From positions 1,871,001-1,935,000 of the forward strand of contig NZ_CP045369.1 of the NCBI RefSeq assembly GCF_009363535.1: a DNA stretch of 64,000 bases. Reading direction: 5' to 3'. The notes below the pieces were generated by a model. It saw only the letters and a program-made list of their open reading frames with translations, was not told the origin of the DNA and ran no database searches. Positions 2,884-9,736 of this stretch are shown here, piece after piece. This DNA is from Microbulbifer sp. THAF38. Lineage in GTDB: Bacteria; Pseudomonadota; Gammaproteobacteria; Pseudomonadales; Cellvibrionaceae. Both the position numbers and the translations under genes were made by a program. Each line of letters begins with the position of its first letter. The first letter of the stretch is position 1.

Positions 2884-4032
2884 TTAAGCAAGTGCGGGCA
2901 TACGCTCACGGGAGTGGCTTTCTATTGAGGTCACAACGGAGTGATCATTTAATTCAAGTAGAATTTCATCCAGGCTGAGAAGTTGCCAGCATGCCTTTGC
3001 CCCAGCCTCCTCCATTTCGCCACGTAAAAATTTGCGAGCTAGGGCCGCCGCAGGAGCCGCTGGAATCCAGGGGCCATCGCCATTCAGGCCGAGCACCTGC
3101 CAGCAGCGTGAGGCAGTTTCACCATGGGTATTTTCCCCTATGGCACGCACAATCATGCCGCCGTGTGGGGTGCCTCCCGGCCAGCGTTCGCTGAGTTTGT
3201 GGCCGAGTTGGGCGATGCGTGCGGTAGTTGCTGGTAGCTGTAGGCGAGACAATTGGGCACATGCGGACAGGCCGATTTGCAGGGTGAGTGGCTCCAACCC
3301 GGTAGCGAAGCGGGCGCTGTGCATCTCGGGGAAATACTTCGGGAAGAGCTCCAGATCGGGCACATCAAAATCGCACAACCAGCGTTTACCTACCGGGTGG
3401 GCGAGCTTGATGGGGCGTAGATTTTTTCCTGCATGGGATTCACGCCAGTAGCCGCCCTGTAGTTGTGGAAAGCTATGGCCGAGGGATTCAACACCGGCAC
3501 GCACGGTTGCCAGGCCGCGATCTATACGGTGTGCGGGTGCTATAGCGATGTCGACGGAATGAATAACCGGCAACTCCAGCTGGATTTCGGCGATTGCGGC
3601 GGAGCTCAGGCCGGGCAGACTGCTGGCACCAGACACCATGGTTATTCCCGCAGCTTCTGCTGCAGGTGATAGGCGATGGAAGTCGCACACGAAGCGGCGG
3701 CCATCGGAGATATCGATGTAAGGTGTGCGGGATTCGATACAGGCTTTGGCGACCCGGTAATCCGCCTCTTTTTGGAAAGGTCCTGCGCAGTGAATCAAAA
3801 GATCCAAATGTAGGGCTTTCAGTTGCGCGGACAGGTTGATGGCGTCTCTTTCCAGGCGCAAGCCTTCGGCGAGCCCACCGAGTTCTTCGGCGCATTGATC
3901 CGCCTGAGCCTTGTTGCGGCCGGCAATAATCAGCTGGATATCGGGCTCAGAACGCAACATATGCGCGATGCGCGCGCCAAAATTGCCGTAGCCGCCAAGT
4001 ATTAATACCCGTTTGTTCAGGTTGTTGATCAC
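2884..4032 (-). CDS. Saccharopine dehydrogenase-like NAD(P)-binding oxidoreductase
   Basis: 382 residues. The N-terminus carries a Rossmann nucleotide-binding loop (ILGGYGNFGARIA, about residues 11-23) followed by the AGRN segment that reads the cofactor. The CAGPF motif near residue 82 is characteristic of the saccharopine dehydrogenase-like oxidoreductase superfamily, whose bacterial members are mostly uncharacterised. The start is GTG at 4032 with a purine-rich GAGGAG about 11 bases upstream, a little far for an ideal ribosome site. It is transcribed away from the sqd-like operon with 488 bases between, so it may share a regulatory region with it. Substrate unknown. I do not think it is a lysine-pathway enzyme, because there are no lysine biosynthesis genes nearby. 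Confidence 0.75.
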   Translation of the reverse strand: MINNLNKRVLILGGYGNFGARIAHMLRSEPDIQLIIAGRNKAQADQCAEELGGLAEGLRLERDAINLSAQLKALHLDLLIHCAGPFQKEADYRVAKACIESRTPYIDISDGRRFVCDFHRLSPAAEAAGITMVSGASSLPGLSSAAIAEIQLELPVIHSVDIAIAPAHRIDRGLATVRAGVESLGHSFPQLQGGYWRESHAGKNLRPIKLAHPVGKRWLCDFDVPDLELFPKYFPEMHSARFATGLEPLTLQIGLSACAQLSRLQLPATTARIAQLGHKLSERWPGGTPHGGMIVRAIGENTHGETASRCWQVLGLNGDGPWIPAAPAAALARKFLRGEMEEAGAKACWQLLSLDEILLELNDHSVVTSIESHSRERMPALA

Positions 4033-4520
4033 CTGGGTCGCACTCCTCTCCCCTGAGGTCAGAGAGGATCATGCAATGGGGTGGTGACGTAAATCAAGAG
4101 AATCTTGGTGTCTGTCATTAATCGATTGGGTAGAGGTTTGGTTCAATTTGGCCTAGGCAAAGAGGATTTTGACGAAAAATAGCAGTTTCTGGGGGGGCGG
4201 CCCTTGCGCTTGAATGGCATAACCTTCTTTGCAGAACTATATTCCCTATCCGCGCCAAGCTGGTGCCTGTTGGCAATCCGATTGGCGCCATCAAACCCCA
4301 GGTTTCTGCACAAGGCTCTGGGTTTCTCTAGGATTCTAAGGGGGAGCGCTTTTTTCTCACAGTACTCCCTTTGGCCGAATGGATGGGTGGATTGTAGGCG
4401 CTAATCAGTGACACCACCCACTAGCTGGTCAATAGCCAGCGGTCGCCTGGTCAGTGGTCTTGTATATTATTTATTCATAGCTTTCGGTATTTGGCGCGAA
4501 TTTTCTCTGGGGAGGCAAAT
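4033..4520. other. Divergent intergenic region upstream of the sqd-like operon
   Basis: This 488-base gap lies between the minus-strand oxidoreductase and the sqdB-like gene and must hold both promoters. The small ORFs in it (for example 4204-4404) look like noise. The sequence just before 4521 contains a strong Shine-Dalgarno (GGGGAGG). A single CTGTCAT, one Pho-box half-site, lies at 4112-4118, without a recognisable second half at the expected 11-base spacing. Confidence 0.5.
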
Positions 4521-5825
4521 ATGCGGCAAAACGGTAATGCCCGCATTTTGGTATTGGGTGGTGACGGATTCTGTGGCTGGCCTACGGCACTGTATTTATC
4601 GAGGCAGGGTTACGCTGTCACTATCGTGGATAATTTTTCACGACGCCTTATCGATGAGGAATTGGGGGTGGAATCCCTGACGCCTATCGAGAGTATTGGG
4701 CAACGTATTCAATGCTGGTGGGAGATGACCGGGCTCAATATTGGGCTGCATAGGCTGGATCTTGCCTGTGATTATGACCCCCTTGTGGAGTTGATTACAG
4801 AGACCCGGCCTGCTGCGATTGTGCATTTTGCCGAGCAGCGCGCTGCGCCATATTCCATGAAATCCTCGCGTCACAAGCGTTACACAGTTTCCAACAATAT
4901 CAATGCCACCAATAATCTTCTCGCTGCCCTGGTGGATGCGGGTGTCGATACGCATGTCGTCCATCTCGGTACTATGGGGGTTTACGGTTACGGCTCTGCG
5001 GGAATGAAGATTCCAGAGGGCTACCTGGATGTGGAAATACCCCTGGAAAATGGACAGAGGGTTTCCCAGCAGATTCTCTATCCGACCAACCCAGGCAGTA
5101 TTTATCACCTGACCAAGTCCCAGGATCAGCTGCTCTTTGCCTACTACAACAAAAACGATGGTGTGCGCGTTACGGATTTACACCAGGGGATCGTTTGGGG
5201 AACTCAAACTGCAGAAACTTCCCTGGATGAACGCTTAATCAACCGCTTTGACTACGACGGGGATTACGGCACTGTACTGAACCGTTTTCTAATGCAGGCT
5301 GCTACTGGCCATGAATTGACGGTTCATGGCACTGGTGGGCAGACCCGCGCATTTATCCATATCTCCGATACGGTGCGCTGTATCCAACTGGCGATCGATT
5401 CCCCTCCCGCTGCGGGTGAGCGTGTGCGCATTATGAACCAGATGACCGAAACCCATCGGGTACGCGATCTCGCCAAGATGATTGCCGATGCCAGTGGAGC
5501 CAAGGTGGCCTTTGTCGATAACCCCCGCAACGAGGCCGCAGAGAACGAGTTATTTGTGGAGAATGACAGTCTGTGTAACCTGGGCTTGAAGCCAACCTTC
5601 CTGGCTCAGGGACTGATGGAGGAAATCTCTGAAGTTGCCGGAAAATATGCGCACCGCTCTAATCCCGACCTGATCCCATGTCGCTCCTACTGGCGAACAG
5701 CAAAAAACCAAGAAAGTTCTCTTGGTGAAGGTATTGGTACAGATACTGAGGATAGTGCTGAGGCACCACACCTGCGCCAGGTATTGGGTGGGGCACAGAA
5801 TTTGATTGGGCCCACTAGCTCATAG
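4521..5825 (+). CDS. sqdB: UDP-sulfoquinovose synthase homologue (SqdB/SQD1 type)
   Basis: Extended SDR enzyme expected to make UDP-sulfoquinovose from UDP-glucose and sulfite, the headgroup donor for sulfolipid. I chose ATG 4521 because GGGGAGG sits about 5 bases upstream; a TTG at 4491 would add ten residues. With this start there are 434 residues. Diagnostic motifs resemble plant SQD1: GGDGFCGW (13-20, nucleotide loop), HFAEQRAAPYSM (102-113), LGTMG (149-153, Thr151) and the catalytic Tyr195-x-x-x-Lys199 (YHLTK). QGIVWG, DYDGDYGT and GTGGQTRAFI blocks also match the family. These together are specific enough to separate it from ordinary UDP-glucose epimerases. About 40 C-terminal residues after SYWRTAKN exceed the usual length and are low in homology. 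It is the first gene of a four-gene operon; the next gene follows after 19 bases. Confidence 0.88.
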   Translation: MRQNGNARILVLGGDGFCGWPTALYLSRQGYAVTIVDNFSRRLIDEELGVESLTPIESIGQRIQCWWEMTGLNIGLHRLDLACDYDPLVELITETRPAAIVHFAEQRAAPYSMKSSRHKRYTVSNNINATNNLLAALVDAGVDTHVVHLGTMGVYGYGSAGMKIPEGYLDVEIPLENGQRVSQQILYPTNPGSIYHLTKSQDQLLFAYYNKNDGVRVTDLHQGIVWGTQTAETSLDERLINRFDYDGDYGTVLNRFLMQAATGHELTVHGTGGQTRAFIHISDTVRCIQLAIDSPPAAGERVRIMNQMTETHRVRDLAKMIADASGAKVAFVDNPRNEAAENELFVENDSLCNLGLKPTFLAQGLMEEISEVAGKYAHRSNPDLIPCRSYWRTAKNQESSLGEGIGTDTEDSAEAPHLRQVLGGAQNLIGPTSS

Positions 5826-5844
5826 CCGGCAATAGGCGCTCCCC

Positions 5845-7149
5845 ATGCCAGGCTGGGATTGCTCCACCCATGTGCCTCTGTCAATTACTGAACAGAGCAT
5901 TTACAACTTGAATCACCGCAAGGTGTTGGCTGACCTGATTACCCGTGCCATGCGCATCAAGGGCGATGTGGATGTCGAGTTGTTTGAGCGGGCCATTCCG
6001 TTGGTTGTAAATTCCTATCCTATTTTTCGTTGCCGCTATCATGATGAGCCGGCAGTTCGAAGCTTTGACGATATCGAGCTGGACTATATGGATATTCGTC
6101 ATATGAGCGAGGCGCATATAACCAGTTTCCTGCGTCAGTTCAGTAGTTCGCCCATGGATTTAATTTCGGATCAACTACTTGGTCTCAGTCTTTTTCGGAC
6201 CGGCGAAGATGAATATATTTTCTTGATCAAGTGTCACCACATTATTACCGATGGTATTAGTCTTTCACTGTTGTGGGCAGAATCCCTGACTGCTTACCTG
6301 ACCATGGAAGCTGGGAAGCCTTATAGGCCTCGGGGAGAAGCTACGGATTTTGCTGACTATATCAATTTTGAAGACACCTATCTCGAATCGGAGCGTGGGC
6401 AAAAAGCCAGATATTACTGGCGTAACAAGTTGGAGCTACAGCATGAGGCTGTTTGGCAGGCCTCGCATCAAGAAATTGTTTCAATCATTTGTAAGGAGGC
6501 GACCCTCAATATTGAGGGCAGAGAGTTCGAGGAAATCCAGGCCAATGCCGGCGATGCAAAGGTCAGTCTGTTTGCCTACTTGTGTGCCGCTTACCAACAA
6601 ACTCTATGTGAATTTCTTCACCATGACTTTTGGCTGAATACCAGCCTGTCACTGCGTCTAAAGCTAGAACACCGGTATATTCTGGGGCCCATGTTTCGTT
6701 ATGGAAATCTTTCCGTTTGCAGGAATGAATCCTGGCCGGAAAAGCTCACCCGGCTGTCGCAGGAGATCAAACGTGCAGTGCGCACGGCCTATGCTGCAGA
6801 CTCTATCGGCCCTCATGGCAGTATCGGCCATAACCTTAATGCCTCCAGTTGTTTCCTGGTTAGTTTTCTTCAGACCGAAGAGCATCATGAAGGCTTTAGT
6901 GCTGTATATACCGGTGAAACTTCAGACTGGGTGGAAGTTGGCGAGAAATTGAAAATACATACGACTCCACTGCCCACACGTTTAACCCCTTACGGAATTT
7001 ATCTTTCAATAGCGGCTTATGGGGGCCAGCTTCGGGCGAGCTTTATCTATAATGTGAACTGTTTCAGTCTAAAACAGGTGGAGTGTATTATGGATCGATG
7101 GCGTCTTCGCGCGATCCATGGCTCGCAAGAAAAAATGCCCCCTCTATGA
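5845..7149 (+). CDS. Stand-alone condensation-domain acyltransferase
   Basis: 434 residues and apparently one condensation (C) domain of the NRPS / PapA / WS-DGAT fold, with no adenylation or carrier domain attached. The active-site HHxxxDG motif is intact as HHIITDG (131-137). The N-terminal LSITEQSIYNL stretch and the early Arg-rich acceptor-side region are as in C domains. I cannot find the second DFGWG motif near the C-terminus, a loss also seen in PapA-like transferases. Such proteins transfer an acyl group from CoA or a carrier protein to an alcohol or amine. Lying between the sqdB and sqdD homologues, it is the obvious candidate for acylating the sulfoquinovosyl product, where Rhodobacter uses the unrelated acyltransferase SqdA. 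That role is inference. Start ATG 5845 is 19 bases after sqdB. Confidence 0.8.
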   Translation: MPGWDCSTHVPLSITEQSIYNLNHRKVLADLITRAMRIKGDVDVELFERAIPLVVNSYPIFRCRYHDEPAVRSFDDIELDYMDIRHMSEAHITSFLRQFSSSPMDLISDQLLGLSLFRTGEDEYIFLIKCHHIITDGISLSLLWAESLTAYLTMEAGKPYRPRGEATDFADYINFEDTYLESERGQKARYYWRNKLELQHEAVWQASHQEIVSIICKEATLNIEGREFEEIQANAGDAKVSLFAYLCAAYQQTLCEFLHHDFWLNTSLSLRLKLEHRYILGPMFRYGNLSVCRNESWPEKLTRLSQEIKRAVRTAYAADSIGPHGSIGHNLNASSCFLVSFLQTEEHHEGFSAVYTGETSDWVEVGEKLKIHTTPLPTRLTPYGIYLSIAAYGGQLRASFIYNVNCFSLKQVECIMDRWRLRAIHGSQEKMPPL

Positions 7150-7226
7150 TCCATCCCATAGGTTTTTTCTGAGCATTTGGCAGTGCGTCCCCCCTAATGA
7201 GTATCAAGTAGTGTGCAGTTGTCGTC

Positions 7227-8054
7227 ATGTCTCATTGTGCCTTTGTTACCCTCATTAATAGCCCAGAGTATGTGACTGGTGCAGTCGCTCTAAAACGCTC
7301 ATTGGAGAGGGTGGGAAGTATCTATCCTCTAGTTACAATGGTGGTCGCCGATTGCGTTAATACAGGGCGGCTGGAATCTTCTGGATGCTTGGTGCGGGAG
7401 GTCAACCTGCCGGATTTTTCCGAAGCATTTATTCAGCGTCATGAGCGCGAGAGGTTACACCGGCGTGCGCCTTTCGATAAAGGGAATAAGCCTAGGTTTC
7501 ATGTTCCATTGAATAATTTTTGCAAGCTGGCTCTTTGGCGCTTGGAGGAATATGACAAACTCGTGTTTCTCGACGCAGATGTTCTAGTGCTTCGCAATAT
7601 TGATCACCTGATGGATTACCCCGAGTTTTGTGCTGCACCTAACCTCTATGAAGACTTGGATGGCTTTGGGCGGATGAATTCCGGCTTATTTACTGCCGTA
7701 CCCTGTGAGGGCACGTATCAAAAAATGCTGAAATTGCTGGATCGACCAGGCGTATTTTGGCGTCGCACCGACCAAACTTTTTTACAGGCGTTTTTTCCCC
7801 GCTGGCACGGTATACCTTATATCTACAATGCTTTGCAGTATCTGTATCTGAACTTACCTCAATTGTGGCTGTGGAGCAGTATTCATGTGATTCACTATCA
7901 ATACGAAAAGCCTTGGCAAAAGGACCATGGGAAAGCGGAACAGCTCAGACCGCTGATCGAGTTGTGGTGGGCTGTCAATCAGGGGCGCGATATCGGTTTG
8001 AGAATCGAGCAGCTTGCCCGTGAGCAGCGCCAATCGTCGGGTGGTGCCTTGTGA
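7227..8054 (+). CDS. sqdD: GT8 glycogenin-like glycosyltransferase, SqdD-like
   Basis: 275 residues, glycosyltransferase family 8. The metal-binding DxD is FLDADVLVL (Asp116-Ala-Asp118), preceded by a Lys/Leu-rich helix and followed by the MNSGLF motif that shapes the donor site in glycogenins. A late HYQYEKPW corresponds to the HFxGxxKPW motif of GT8 enzymes. In Rhodobacter sphaeroides the sulfoquinovosyltransferase SqdD is a glycogenin-like protein, so its place two genes after sqdB supports the same role: transferring sulfoquinovose from UDP-sulfoquinovose to a three-carbon acceptor. It follows the acyltransferase gene after 77 bases and overlaps the next gene by 4 bases, implying translational coupling. 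No signal peptide or membrane segment is seen, so it is probably cytosolic or membrane-associated. Confidence 0.8.
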   Translation: MSHCAFVTLINSPEYVTGAVALKRSLERVGSIYPLVTMVVADCVNTGRLESSGCLVREVNLPDFSEAFIQRHERERLHRRAPFDKGNKPRFHVPLNNFCKLALWRLEEYDKLVFLDADVLVLRNIDHLMDYPEFCAAPNLYEDLDGFGRMNSGLFTAVPCEGTYQKMLKLLDRPGVFWRRTDQTFLQAFFPRWHGIPYIYNALQYLYLNLPQLWLWSSIHVIHYQYEKPWQKDHGKAEQLRPLIELWWAVNQGRDIGLRIEQLAREQRQSSGGAL

Positions 8055-8980
8055 ATATCGGTATCACTGGCGCTAGTGGTTATGTCGGGCAATTTATTGT
8101 TCGCTACTTTCTCGATCATGGTTACAAGGTGCGGGCAATGTCCCGTTCGGGGCGCAAGTCAGGCTTATTTCCCTTTGCTGCGGGCAGTAACTTTGAGTGG
8201 GTTGCTGGCGATATGGTAGATCGCAGTGTTTTATCCAAATTTGTGAGGGGGCTTAATGCGATAGTGCATTGCGCCTATGACCATTTGCCCGGCCGTTATC
8301 GAGGTGGGGAGGGGGAAAACCTCTCCAGGTATCTCGATTCCAATTTGAACAGCACGCTGCTGTTGATGCAGGTGGCTCACTCTGCTGCCGTGGATAAATT
8401 TGTTTTTATTTCCAGTAGGGCGGTGTACGCGACGGGGTGTTTGCGCGGCAGTTTGTACGAGCATCAGGCGGTGCGGCCCGATACATTTTATGGGGCATAT
8501 AAATCGGCGGTGGAGGCGATGGTCTGTGCCTGGGCTCAGCAGCGCCAATGGCATGCGGTTTCCCTGCGCCTCACCGGAGTCTATGGCGTGGTAAATCCTC
8601 TGGAGCGCAGCAAGTGGTATGACATTGCCCGTGCGGTGGTCAGTGGGGAGCCCTATACCCAGGCCAGAGTTGCCACGGAGGTACATGGAGAAGATGTAGC
8701 CCGAGCGGTAGAGTTGGTGCTGTCTGAGGAGGATGCCCGGGGCCGGGCAGTAAATTGCAGCGATCGCCTGGTGAGCTATCGGGAAGTGGCTGAGATTTTG
8801 CAGTCCATGTTAGGAACACGTAGCCCTCTGCCCCCAGAGCCTCGGGAAGAGCCGCCAACGGTAATGGACTGTGCCTATTTGCAAGGCAAGGGCTTCAAGT
8901 TTGGCGGGGCAGAGCGCTTGCGACACAGCCTGCGCCTACTGGCGGAAGCTGTGAAGCTCGAGCAAAGACTCTACCACTAG
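8051..8980 (+). CDS. Extended SDR reductase, probable SqdC-like
   Basis: 309 residues, NAD(P)-dependent epimerase/dehydratase family. The TGASGYVG nucleotide loop is at residues 6-13 and the catalytic Tyr147-x-x-x-Lys151 (YGAYK) is present, preceded by SSRAVY as the serine-bearing strand. It starts with GTG at 8051, overlapping the stop of the GT8 gene in a GTGA junction, so it is the last gene of a tightly coupled operon. In Rhodobacter an sqdC mutant accumulates sulfoquinovosyl-dihydroxyacetone, suggesting a reductase step in sulfolipid assembly. A reductase in this position fits that step, but the family is broad and the assignment rests on neighbours. The alternative is another nucleotide-sugar modifying enzyme. 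Confidence 0.7.
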   Translation: MNIGITGASGYVGQFIVRYFLDHGYKVRAMSRSGRKSGLFPFAAGSNFEWVAGDMVDRSVLSKFVRGLNAIVHCAYDHLPGRYRGGEGENLSRYLDSNLNSTLLLMQVAHSAAVDKFVFISSRAVYATGCLRGSLYEHQAVRPDTFYGAYKSAVEAMVCAWAQQRQWHAVSLRLTGVYGVVNPLERSKWYDIARAVVSGEPYTQARVATEVHGEDVARAVELVLSEEDARGRAVNCSDRLVSYREVAEILQSMLGTRSPLPPEPREEPPTVMDCAYLQGKGFKFGGAERLRHSLRLLAEAVKLEQRLYH

Positions 8981-9010: not shown

Positions 9011-9736
9011 TCAGCCGATTGGCCAGTGCATCAGTTCCAATGTTTCGCCGTTCGCTTTCAGGCACCAGGCATTGTGATCCCAGTCTCCCAGTACAATGCG
9101 CTCCGCAGGGGCATCATCAATGGAGAAGGGGTGGCGGCCCGGCCTGTGGGTGTGGCCGTGGATCAGAGTGTTCGCGTTGTATTCACGCATCACTTTTTCC
9201 ACTTCCTCAGGGGTGACATCCATGATGTCTTCCGCTTTGCGGCTGTTCATGGCTTTGGACGCGGCGCGAATCTGTGCGGCGATAGCGCGGCGCTCTTCCA
9301 AAGGCTTGGCCAGCAACCCCTGCTGCCAGTTGGGGTCCCGCGCCTGGCGACGGAAAGCCATGTACTCCTCATCGCGAGTGCAGAGGCTGTCGCCGTGCAT
9401 CAGTAAGACTTGCTGACCTGCCAGAGTGAGGGTGGTTGGGTCCTGCAGCAATATTGCCCCTGTGCGCAAGGCAAAATCCGCACCGAGCAGGAAATCGCGG
9501 TTGCCGTGCATCAGATACAGTTCCACCCCGGTGCCACTGTAGTGGCTCAACTCCCGTACCACTTCATTGATCAGGGGGGCATCGTCGTCATCGCCAATCC
9601 AGGCCTCGAAGAAGTCGCCGAGAATATATAGTGCCTCGGCACCGGCGGCAGGGCCGCGCAGGAAATCAAAGAAAGCCTGGGTAATCTCTGGACGGCTCTC
9701 ATCGAGGTGCAGATCGGAAATAAAATAAATAGACAA
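9011..9736 (-). CDS. lpxH: UDP-2,3-diacylglucosamine diphosphatase LpxH
   Basis: Lipid A biosynthesis enzyme that hydrolyses UDP-2,3-diacylglucosamine to lipid X (2,3-diacylglucosamine 1-phosphate) and UMP at the inner membrane. 241 residues, the usual length. It has the calcineurin-type metallophosphoesterase signature: SDLHL at residues 7-11 (Asp8, His10), GDFFEAWIGDD, GNRDFLLG, and the C-terminal HGHTHRPGRH. It is the second gene of a minus-strand pair with ppiB (35-base gap) and converges on the sqd-like operon, 30 bases from its last stop codon. The ppiB-lpxH order is common in gammaproteobacteria. Confidence 0.95.
   Translation of the reverse strand: MSIYFISDLHLDESRPEITQAFFDFLRGPAAGAEALYILGDFFEAWIGDDDDAPLINEVVRELSHYSGTGVELYLMHGNRDFLLGADFALRTGAILLQDPTTLTLAGQQVLLMHGDSLCTRDEEYMAFRRQARDPNWQQGLLAKPLEERRAIAAQIRAASKAMNSRKAEDIMDVTPEEVEKVMREYNANTLIHGHTHRPGRHPFSIDDAPAERIVLGDWDHNAWCLKANGETLELMHWPIG

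Follow-up and report, generated by a model that had tools for sequence, protein, structure and literature searches.

Bacterial synthesis of sulfoquinovosyl diacylglycerol (SQDG) of the Rhodobacter type involves an acyltransferase, SqdA, that is lysophospholipid acyltransferase (LPLAT)-like, and mutants in sqdC accumulate sulfoquinovose (SQ)-dihydroxyacetone; in our judgment, acylation is the least understood step of this pathway. In Rhodobacter sphaeroides, SQDG requires SqdB, SqdA, SqdC, and SqdD, and sqdBDC forms an operon (PMC11346425). The occurrence of sqdB in heterotrophic bacteria is also already known (PMC4796936, citing earlier work). Here, we describe a cluster at positions 4521 to 8980 of a 64,000-nt stretch of DNA from Microbulbifer sp. 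THAF38 (contig NZ_CP045369.1, positions 1,871,001 to 1,935,000; hereafter, the window), in which homologues of sqdB, sqdD, and sqdC follow one another in the same order as in the sqdBDC operons of R. sphaeroides, Sinorhizobium meliloti, and roseobacters. The cluster differs from those operons in carrying an additional gene for a condensation-domain protein (C-domain A) of the nonribosomal peptide synthetase (NRPS) type, in having an SqdC that is only 32 to 34% identical to theirs, and in having an SqdB that falls outside the sqdBDC-type clade. Judged by its sequence, it is an operon of the sqdBDC type in which a C-domain gene separates sqdB from sqdD, and we assign a probability of about 50% to the reading that SqdB, SqdD, and SqdC make SQ-glycerol and that the C-domain enzyme O-acylates it, replacing SqdA. 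The cluster is laid out as follows, in window coordinates:

4461-4520, + strand: leader of sqdB, with a GGGGAGG ribosome-binding site (alignment of four genomes)
4521-5825, + strand: sqdB, UDP-sulfoquinovose synthase, ATG start (SQD1 match, relatives, and tree)
5845-7149, + strand: C-domain A, free-standing NRPS-type condensation-domain protein, proposed acyltransferase (Pfam Condensation)
6235-6255, + strand: HHIITDG (HHxxxDG) active-site motif of C-domain A, residues 131 to 137
7227-8054, + strand: sqdD, glycosyltransferase of family GT8 with a DAD (DxD) motif (Pfam Glyco_transf_8)
8051-8980, + strand: sqdC, extended short-chain dehydrogenase/reductase (SDR) with GxxGxxG and YxxxK, GTG start (Pfam Epimerase)

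The four genes lie compactly on the + strand, where the original prediction had placed them, and the SQD1 match and Pfam bear out the families that it named (Condensation, E = 2.3e-35 and the sole family in the second protein; Glyco_transf_8, E = 4.9e-13; Epimerase, E = 5.5e-30); sequence identity likewise upholds its reading of three of them as sqdB, sqdD, and sqdC homologues. Intergenic gaps are 19 bp between sqdB and the C-domain gene and 77 bp between the latter and the GT8 gene, which overlaps the SDR gene by 4 bp. The mechanically called open reading frame (ORF) of sqdB opens with a TTG codon at 4491, upstream of the ATG at 4521. In the window, sqdD does not come directly after sqdB, since the C-domain gene (5845-7149) intervenes. 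Ratios of nonsynonymous to synonymous change (pN/pS), which indicate purifying selection, range from 0.077 to 0.178 across the four genes in comparisons with the three nearest relatives, and from 0.18 to 0.36 for C-domain A, GT8, and SDR against three further relatives, for which synonymous sites are saturated.

The first gene product matches plant SQD1 (PDB 1i24) with an E value of 1.3e-96. A scan of species genomes gave at least 584 confirmed relatives, of which the best 80 were analyzed: these are 62 to 71% identical to the window SqdB and come from cyanobacteria, actinobacteria, bacilli, Deinococcota, Proteobacteria, and others. In alignment, the window SqdB retains the active-site Thr, Met, Tyr, YxxxK, His, and Arg (residues as named in PMC4388408). 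A quick tree (82 rows thinned from 117 by taking every second locus of L007 to L085 and retaining seven named ones) positions the protein within bacterial SqdB, where it forms a single group with three relatives and Shewanella surugensis (99% support); 13 sqdBDC-type SqdBs form a separate group (100%) that excludes it, and the deep order is weakly supported. Tree, relatives, and active-site residues thus agree that this SqdB does not sit among other epimerases, a placement that the original prediction had left to phylogeny.

That the protein might be some other nucleotide-sugar enzyme, and not a UDP-sulfoquinovose synthase, is suggested by its score of 326 bits on the NCBIfam model for UDP-sulfoquinovose synthase (NF041015), whose curated cut-off is 575, and by a difference at Glu147 of Agl3, an enzyme impaired by the change E147A (PMC4388408): the window SqdB lacks this Glu at the equivalent column, the alignment being uncertain there. 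We regard this alternative as extremely improbable, given the position of the protein inside bacterial SqdB in the tree and given that both peculiarities are common. The Glu is likewise missing from 114 of the 117 other aligned SqdBs, including all 12 of the sqdBDC type and all 10 from cyanobacteria, and four control SqdBs (cyanobacterial, roseobacter sqdBDC, Shewanella, and the second copy in the same genome) score 326 to 344 bits, so that the cut-off does not separate and a score beneath it does not disqualify an SqdB. As a side observation, the NF041015 cut-off excludes five of the five bacterial SqdBs scored (326 to 344 bits), and automatic naming by this cut-off may miss many UDP-sulfoquinovose synthases.

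The GT8 protein, whose nearest kin among solved structures is glycogenin (E = 7.8e-18), is clearly of the alphaproteobacterial SqdD family, unlike the window SqdB in its placement. A tblastn search of 72,556 plasmid records with this protein matched 10, seven at 52 to 57% identity (Marinovum, Palleronia, Loktanella, and four Sinorhizobium) and three at 28 to 31% that are other rhizobial GT8s. All seven of the closer records also contain an SqdB match, and of the five inspected, the four with annotation all have sqdB followed directly by GT8 (the fifth is unannotated there). An annotated SDR comes next in three of these four; in S. meliloti, the GT8 gene is followed by an unannotated ORF that is SDR-like by eye. 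In an Agrobacterium record containing a 42% SqdB, the gene surroundings are of the glycan type and include no GT8 of the SqdD kind. The window SDR matches the three annotated SqdCs at 32 to 34% identity over nearly the full length, and the gene order is the same. Among 398 sampled genomes of the phylum, the GT8 (E ≤ 1e-30) occurs in nine, namely, the window's own and eight of another class; sqdB, sqdD, and sqdC are all present in those eight, and their sqdB and sqdD matches are separated by at most about 420 bp, leaving no room for a C-domain gene. In 369 sampled genomes of the window's class, the GT8 (E ≤ 1e-20) was found only in the window's own genome. By these samples, the sqdBDC-type gene set is rare in the class and is here accompanied by one additional gene; no C-domain gene separates sqdB from sqdD in any of the 12 sqdBDC operons from other classes that were examined. 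Among the best 80 SqdB loci, several of them incomplete, a GT8 of the SqdD kind lies nearby in Shewanella only. The idea that the entire operon derives from an alphaproteobacterium is rejected in its simple form, since SqdB clusters with its Shewanella counterpart, away from the sqdBDC-type clade (deep branches being weak).

Across 116 genomes (the window's own and its relatives), the GT8 (E ≤ 1e-10) occurs in eight, all within the window's genus, and sqdB (E ≤ 1e-60) occurs in 16, which include all eight with the GT8 (p = 2e-8, uncorrected for kinship). An intact trio of C-domain, GT8, and SDR genes, identically ordered and at the same chromosomal location, is found in seven genomes (the window's own, G036, G003, G009, G042, G029, and G044). 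The trio is linked to sqdB in the first four of these; in G042, G029, and G044, sqdB lies elsewhere, and in G042 a stretch of 35 residues just upstream of the C-domain gene weakly resembles the end of SqdB (E = 1e-4), which we read as a putative sqdB relic. Outside the genus, S. surugensis has sqdB, C-domain, and GT8 genes in a row, with an SDR gene nearby on the opposite strand; its genome contains one sqdB, and it alone among 117 Shewanella genomes has the C-domain (E ≤ 1e-30). The C-domain gene stands between sqdB and sqdD in all five examined loci with a linked sqdB (the window's own, G036, G003, G009, and S. surugensis), which supports the view that evolution has retained it as a stable member of the set. 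It is very unlikely that the gene is an unrelated passenger in a cluster whose product is SQ-glycerol itself or an SQ surface glycan. The unlinked sqdB in three of the seven clusters would suit such a passenger, as would the other sqdB settings within the genus, some of them glycan-like (see below); against it, the C-domain gene stays between sqdB and sqdD or beside sqdD-sqdC in two families (those of the window's genus and Shewanella), and with a pN/pS of 0.117 to 0.178 against three relatives, it is under purifying selection.

C-domain A is a single-domain protein of 434 aa. A profile of 12 C-domain members searched against the PDB found bacitracin synthase 3 as its best match (E = 1.1e-30) and also matched 1l5a (E = 5.2e-12), which we take to be VibH, and 12kh (OaaC; E = 4.5e-7); by name, PapA is absent from the 54 PDB sequences matched. 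The second His, the Asp, and the Tyr after 14 residues (HHxxxD-x14-Y) are retained in all 12 homologues. This motif is kept by NRPS enzymes, with coenzyme A (CoA)-dependent relatives sharing HxxxD (PMC10619693), and its retention hints at a fatty acyl-acyl carrier protein (acyl-ACP) as the donor. An AlphaFold2 model built from two C-domain sequences (window and L006) has a mean confidence (pLDDT) of 36.8. Plasmid records matching the C-domain number 256, all below 60% identity, and the ten listed among them are ordinary NRPS-type matches that are 21 to 24% identical.

Among solved structures, then, the protein is nearest to NRPS C domains and not to PapA, and together with the conserved motif this would also fit an enzyme that couples a carrier-bound amino acid, or another non-fatty acyl group, to SQ-glycerol, yielding a sulfonated conjugate, surfactant, or secondary metabolite. 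Large NRPS-type proteins are encoded elsewhere in the genome (at about 1.14 to 1.17 Mb of G000:C1), and the distribution of the cluster is patchy, like that of secondary metabolism. No adenylation or carrier-protein gene was recognized beside the C-domain gene in the seven clusters or Shewanella, however, and sqdD and sqdC are lipid-headgroup genes in the known operons; we consider such a conjugate distinctly unlikely.

In its proposed role, C-domain A would resemble Rhodobacter SqdA in acylating the SQ-glycerol headgroup, the difference being one of fold (condensation domain versus LPLAT-like). Enzymes of the same fold class as C-domain A are known to acylate sugars or sugar-polyols, such as PapA1 and PapA2 of mycobacterial sulfolipid-1. 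Similarly, the fungal MAC1 and MAC2 act as acyltransferases on mannosylerythritol lipids (PMC10619693) and come as a pair, as do C-domain A and its paralogue B described below. These four enzymes differ from C-domain A in that they are CoA-type or polyketide synthase-associated and act on other sugars. A precedent is offered by OaaC, a free-standing C domain that uses fatty-acyl-ACP and belongs to a group in which the second His is more than 99% conserved and the first varies (PMC13142362); C-domain A is homologous to it (PDB 12KH), is also free-standing, and also has a constant second His.

In the pathway that we propose, SqdB would form UDP-SQ from UDP-glucose and sulfite; SqdD, with the retaining fold of GT8, would transfer SQ to a three-carbon acceptor (dihydroxyacetone, its phosphate, or a glycerol derivative); and SqdC would reduce the resulting SQ-dihydroxyacetone-type product to SQ-glycerol. 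The second His of the HHxxxDG motif in C-domain A would then activate a hydroxyl of SQ-glycerol for O-acylation with a fatty acyl group, probably from ACP. The product would be a mono- or diacyl SQ-glycerolipid made with C-domain A in place of Rhodobacter SqdA, and paralogue B, where present, may place a second acyl chain. Headgroup synthesis by SqdB, SqdD, and SqdC is a well-supported prediction, and we infer the acceptor, the acyl donor, the order of steps, and the product. Because the C-domain protein has the only acyl-transfer fold among the four, acylation of SQ-glycerol would be its simplest role, and the suggestion of the original prediction that this enzyme carries out the acylation is compatible with the sequences.

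A separate acyltransferase of the SqdA or PlsC type could instead make ordinary SQDG, with the C-domain enzyme adding an extra acyl group to the sugar, as in the 2'-O-acyl-SQDG type of lipid found in algae. Any genome of this kind should encode general lipid acyltransferases, and the alphaproteobacterial operons examined work without a C-domain gene, which could make the gene an add-on. Enzymes of the Condensation/BAHD fold do acylate sugars (e.g., MAC2p on mannosylerythritol; PMC10619693). Nothing specific speaks against this alternative, which requires one further, unlinked enzyme for the glycerol; we judge it unlikely.

Several observations weigh against O-acylation of SQ-glycerol by C-domain A. 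No ACP or acyl-activating gene was recognized among the four genes and their immediate neighbors, and ordinary PlsC-type enzymes might account for some or even all of the acylation. In Shewanella, Gln takes the place of the first active-site His. OaaC uses amines as acceptors, forming amides, and its motif is (D/H)HxxxDS (PMC13142362), whereas C-domain A has HHxxxDG and a hydroxyl as its proposed acceptor. To these may be added the Glu147 difference in SqdB noted above and the presence of the cluster in few genomes of the genus, together with its decay in two (G004 has pieces of the C-domain gene, and G010 has broken pieces of all three trio genes).

The same genome also holds a second C-domain gene and a second sqdB, which, but for the last 26 bases of the former, lie outside the window and so beyond the reach of the original prediction:

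1-26, + strand: end of C-domain paralogue B (complete gene at L004:7741-9027, equal to G000:C1:1869740-1871026)
L003:9421-11726 (equal to G000:C1:1077420-1079725): second sqdB with a GT4 gene

Paralogue B (428 aa) lies just upstream of the window on the same strand and is 56 to 57% identical to C-domain A. It is intact (Pfam Condensation, E = 1.9e-37), keeps HHIIADG and the Tyr 15 residues past the Asp, and has pN/pS values of 0.153, 0.197, and 0.329. Four of the seven cluster genomes carry it (the window's own, G036, G003, and G029), and G009 retains a fragment; G042, G044, and Shewanella have a single C-domain gene only, which seems to suffice there. The second sqdB encodes a product 64% identical to the window SqdB and is followed 95 bp downstream by a GT4 gene, whose product is 42 to 48% identical to GT4s near sqdB in L059, L071, L018, and L021 and about 29% identical to the GT4 after cyanobacterial sqdB in L049. 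The function of this GT4 is likely SqdX- or Agt-like, and the locus resembles the SqdB-SqdX/Agt-type route, in which a GT4 acts on diacylglycerol; it is separate from the window operon and has a GT4 instead of the GT8-SDR pair, without a C-domain. It thus probably constitutes a separate diacylglycerol-dependent SQDG route, and because of it, detection of SQ lipids alone would not implicate the window operon. A tentative and rather doubtful extension of our proposal is a headgroup-first route that uses neither phosphatidate nor diacylglycerol, in which C-domains A and B would each add one ACP-derived chain to free SQ-glycerol, beside the diacylglycerol-dependent route of the second SqdB and its GT4.

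Altogether, the window's genus contains four different sqdB settings. In L123, L124, and L125 (genomes G070, G037, and G034), an SqdB of another lineage is encoded after a gene with a PAPS-reductase domain, and in L123 and L124, sqdB is upstream of a sulfotransferase-like gene (the Pfam search covered L124 only); this setting may perhaps provide its own sulfite and make a glycan that is sulfated or bears SQ. A further lineage, 55 to 58% identical, is found in L129, L130, L131, L138, and L139 (genomes G042, G004, G029, G044, and G010, respectively), beside an epimerase and probable glycan genes (L138). In G042 and G029, sqdB of this lineage is the only sqdB found, and it may therefore act in trans for the C-domain-sqdD-sqdC trio.

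The insertion site of the cluster is bordered by two genes:

2884-4032, - strand: F3, protein with a saccharopine-dehydrogenase-like NAD(P) domain (PF03435, 7e-13), one border of the insertion site
9011-9736, - strand: lpxH-like metallophosphoesterase gene, the other border (named by eye; synteny)

In eight hand-picked genomes without the cluster, F3 was found in seven and directly adjoins the lpxH-like gene in six of these seven, forming an empty site. Such a site fits the acquisition of the cluster there as a unit, with repeated loss as the alternative. Low G+C content was dropped as a sign of acquisition: the C-domain gene (47.7%) and the GT8 gene (48.8%) lie below four flanking genes (54.7 to 57.9%), but the window itself averages 49.2%. 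In G044, F3 is split into two overlapping ORFs (L111:7991-9150) and is probably broken. A GH5 cellulase gene with CBM2 is situated at 415-2196 of the window, between C-domain B and F3; it is not present in the syntenic stretches of G036, G003, and G029, which also carry C-domain B.

Upstream of the cluster, positions 4461 to 4520 are the best conserved part in an alignment of the window with G036, G003, and G009 and probably contain the promoter. The sqdB of S. meliloti is listed with the Pho regulon (PMC10315480), and the original prediction had pointed to phosphate limitation. Such a link gains no support here: across seven genomes, the 550 bp that precede the cluster contain no conserved Pho box, the best sites there having 5 to 7 mismatches of 18, and shuffling the window region 100 times gives deciles that likewise span 5 to 7 mismatches. 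In three genomes, a weak Pho box (4 to 5 mismatches) occupies a shared position upstream of the second sqdB and is equaled by 2, 3, and 9 of 100 shuffles; in three other genomes, its best Pho box is matched by 13 to 39 of 100 shuffles, and we draw no claim from these sites. Promoter-like sites (5 versus 5.2 expected by chance) and terminator-like sites (10 versus 5.9) were not used.

Among open-license papers, we found none linking sulfoquinovose with a condensation domain and none linking it with Microbulbifer; what we propose as new here is an sqdBDC-type operon with a putative NRPS-type acyltransferase embedded in it. A conserved gene set appears to use an enzyme of unrelated fold for acylation and, if this is true, NRPS-type condensation domains become membrane-lipid acyltransferases. 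Were the headgroup-first route also to hold, its product would be, as far as we know, the first membrane glycerolipid with ester bonds made by NRPS-type condensation domains. If our reading is true, the presence of sqdB in a genome or metagenome would no longer mark one single SQDG route, as there are four sqdB settings in the window's genus alone.

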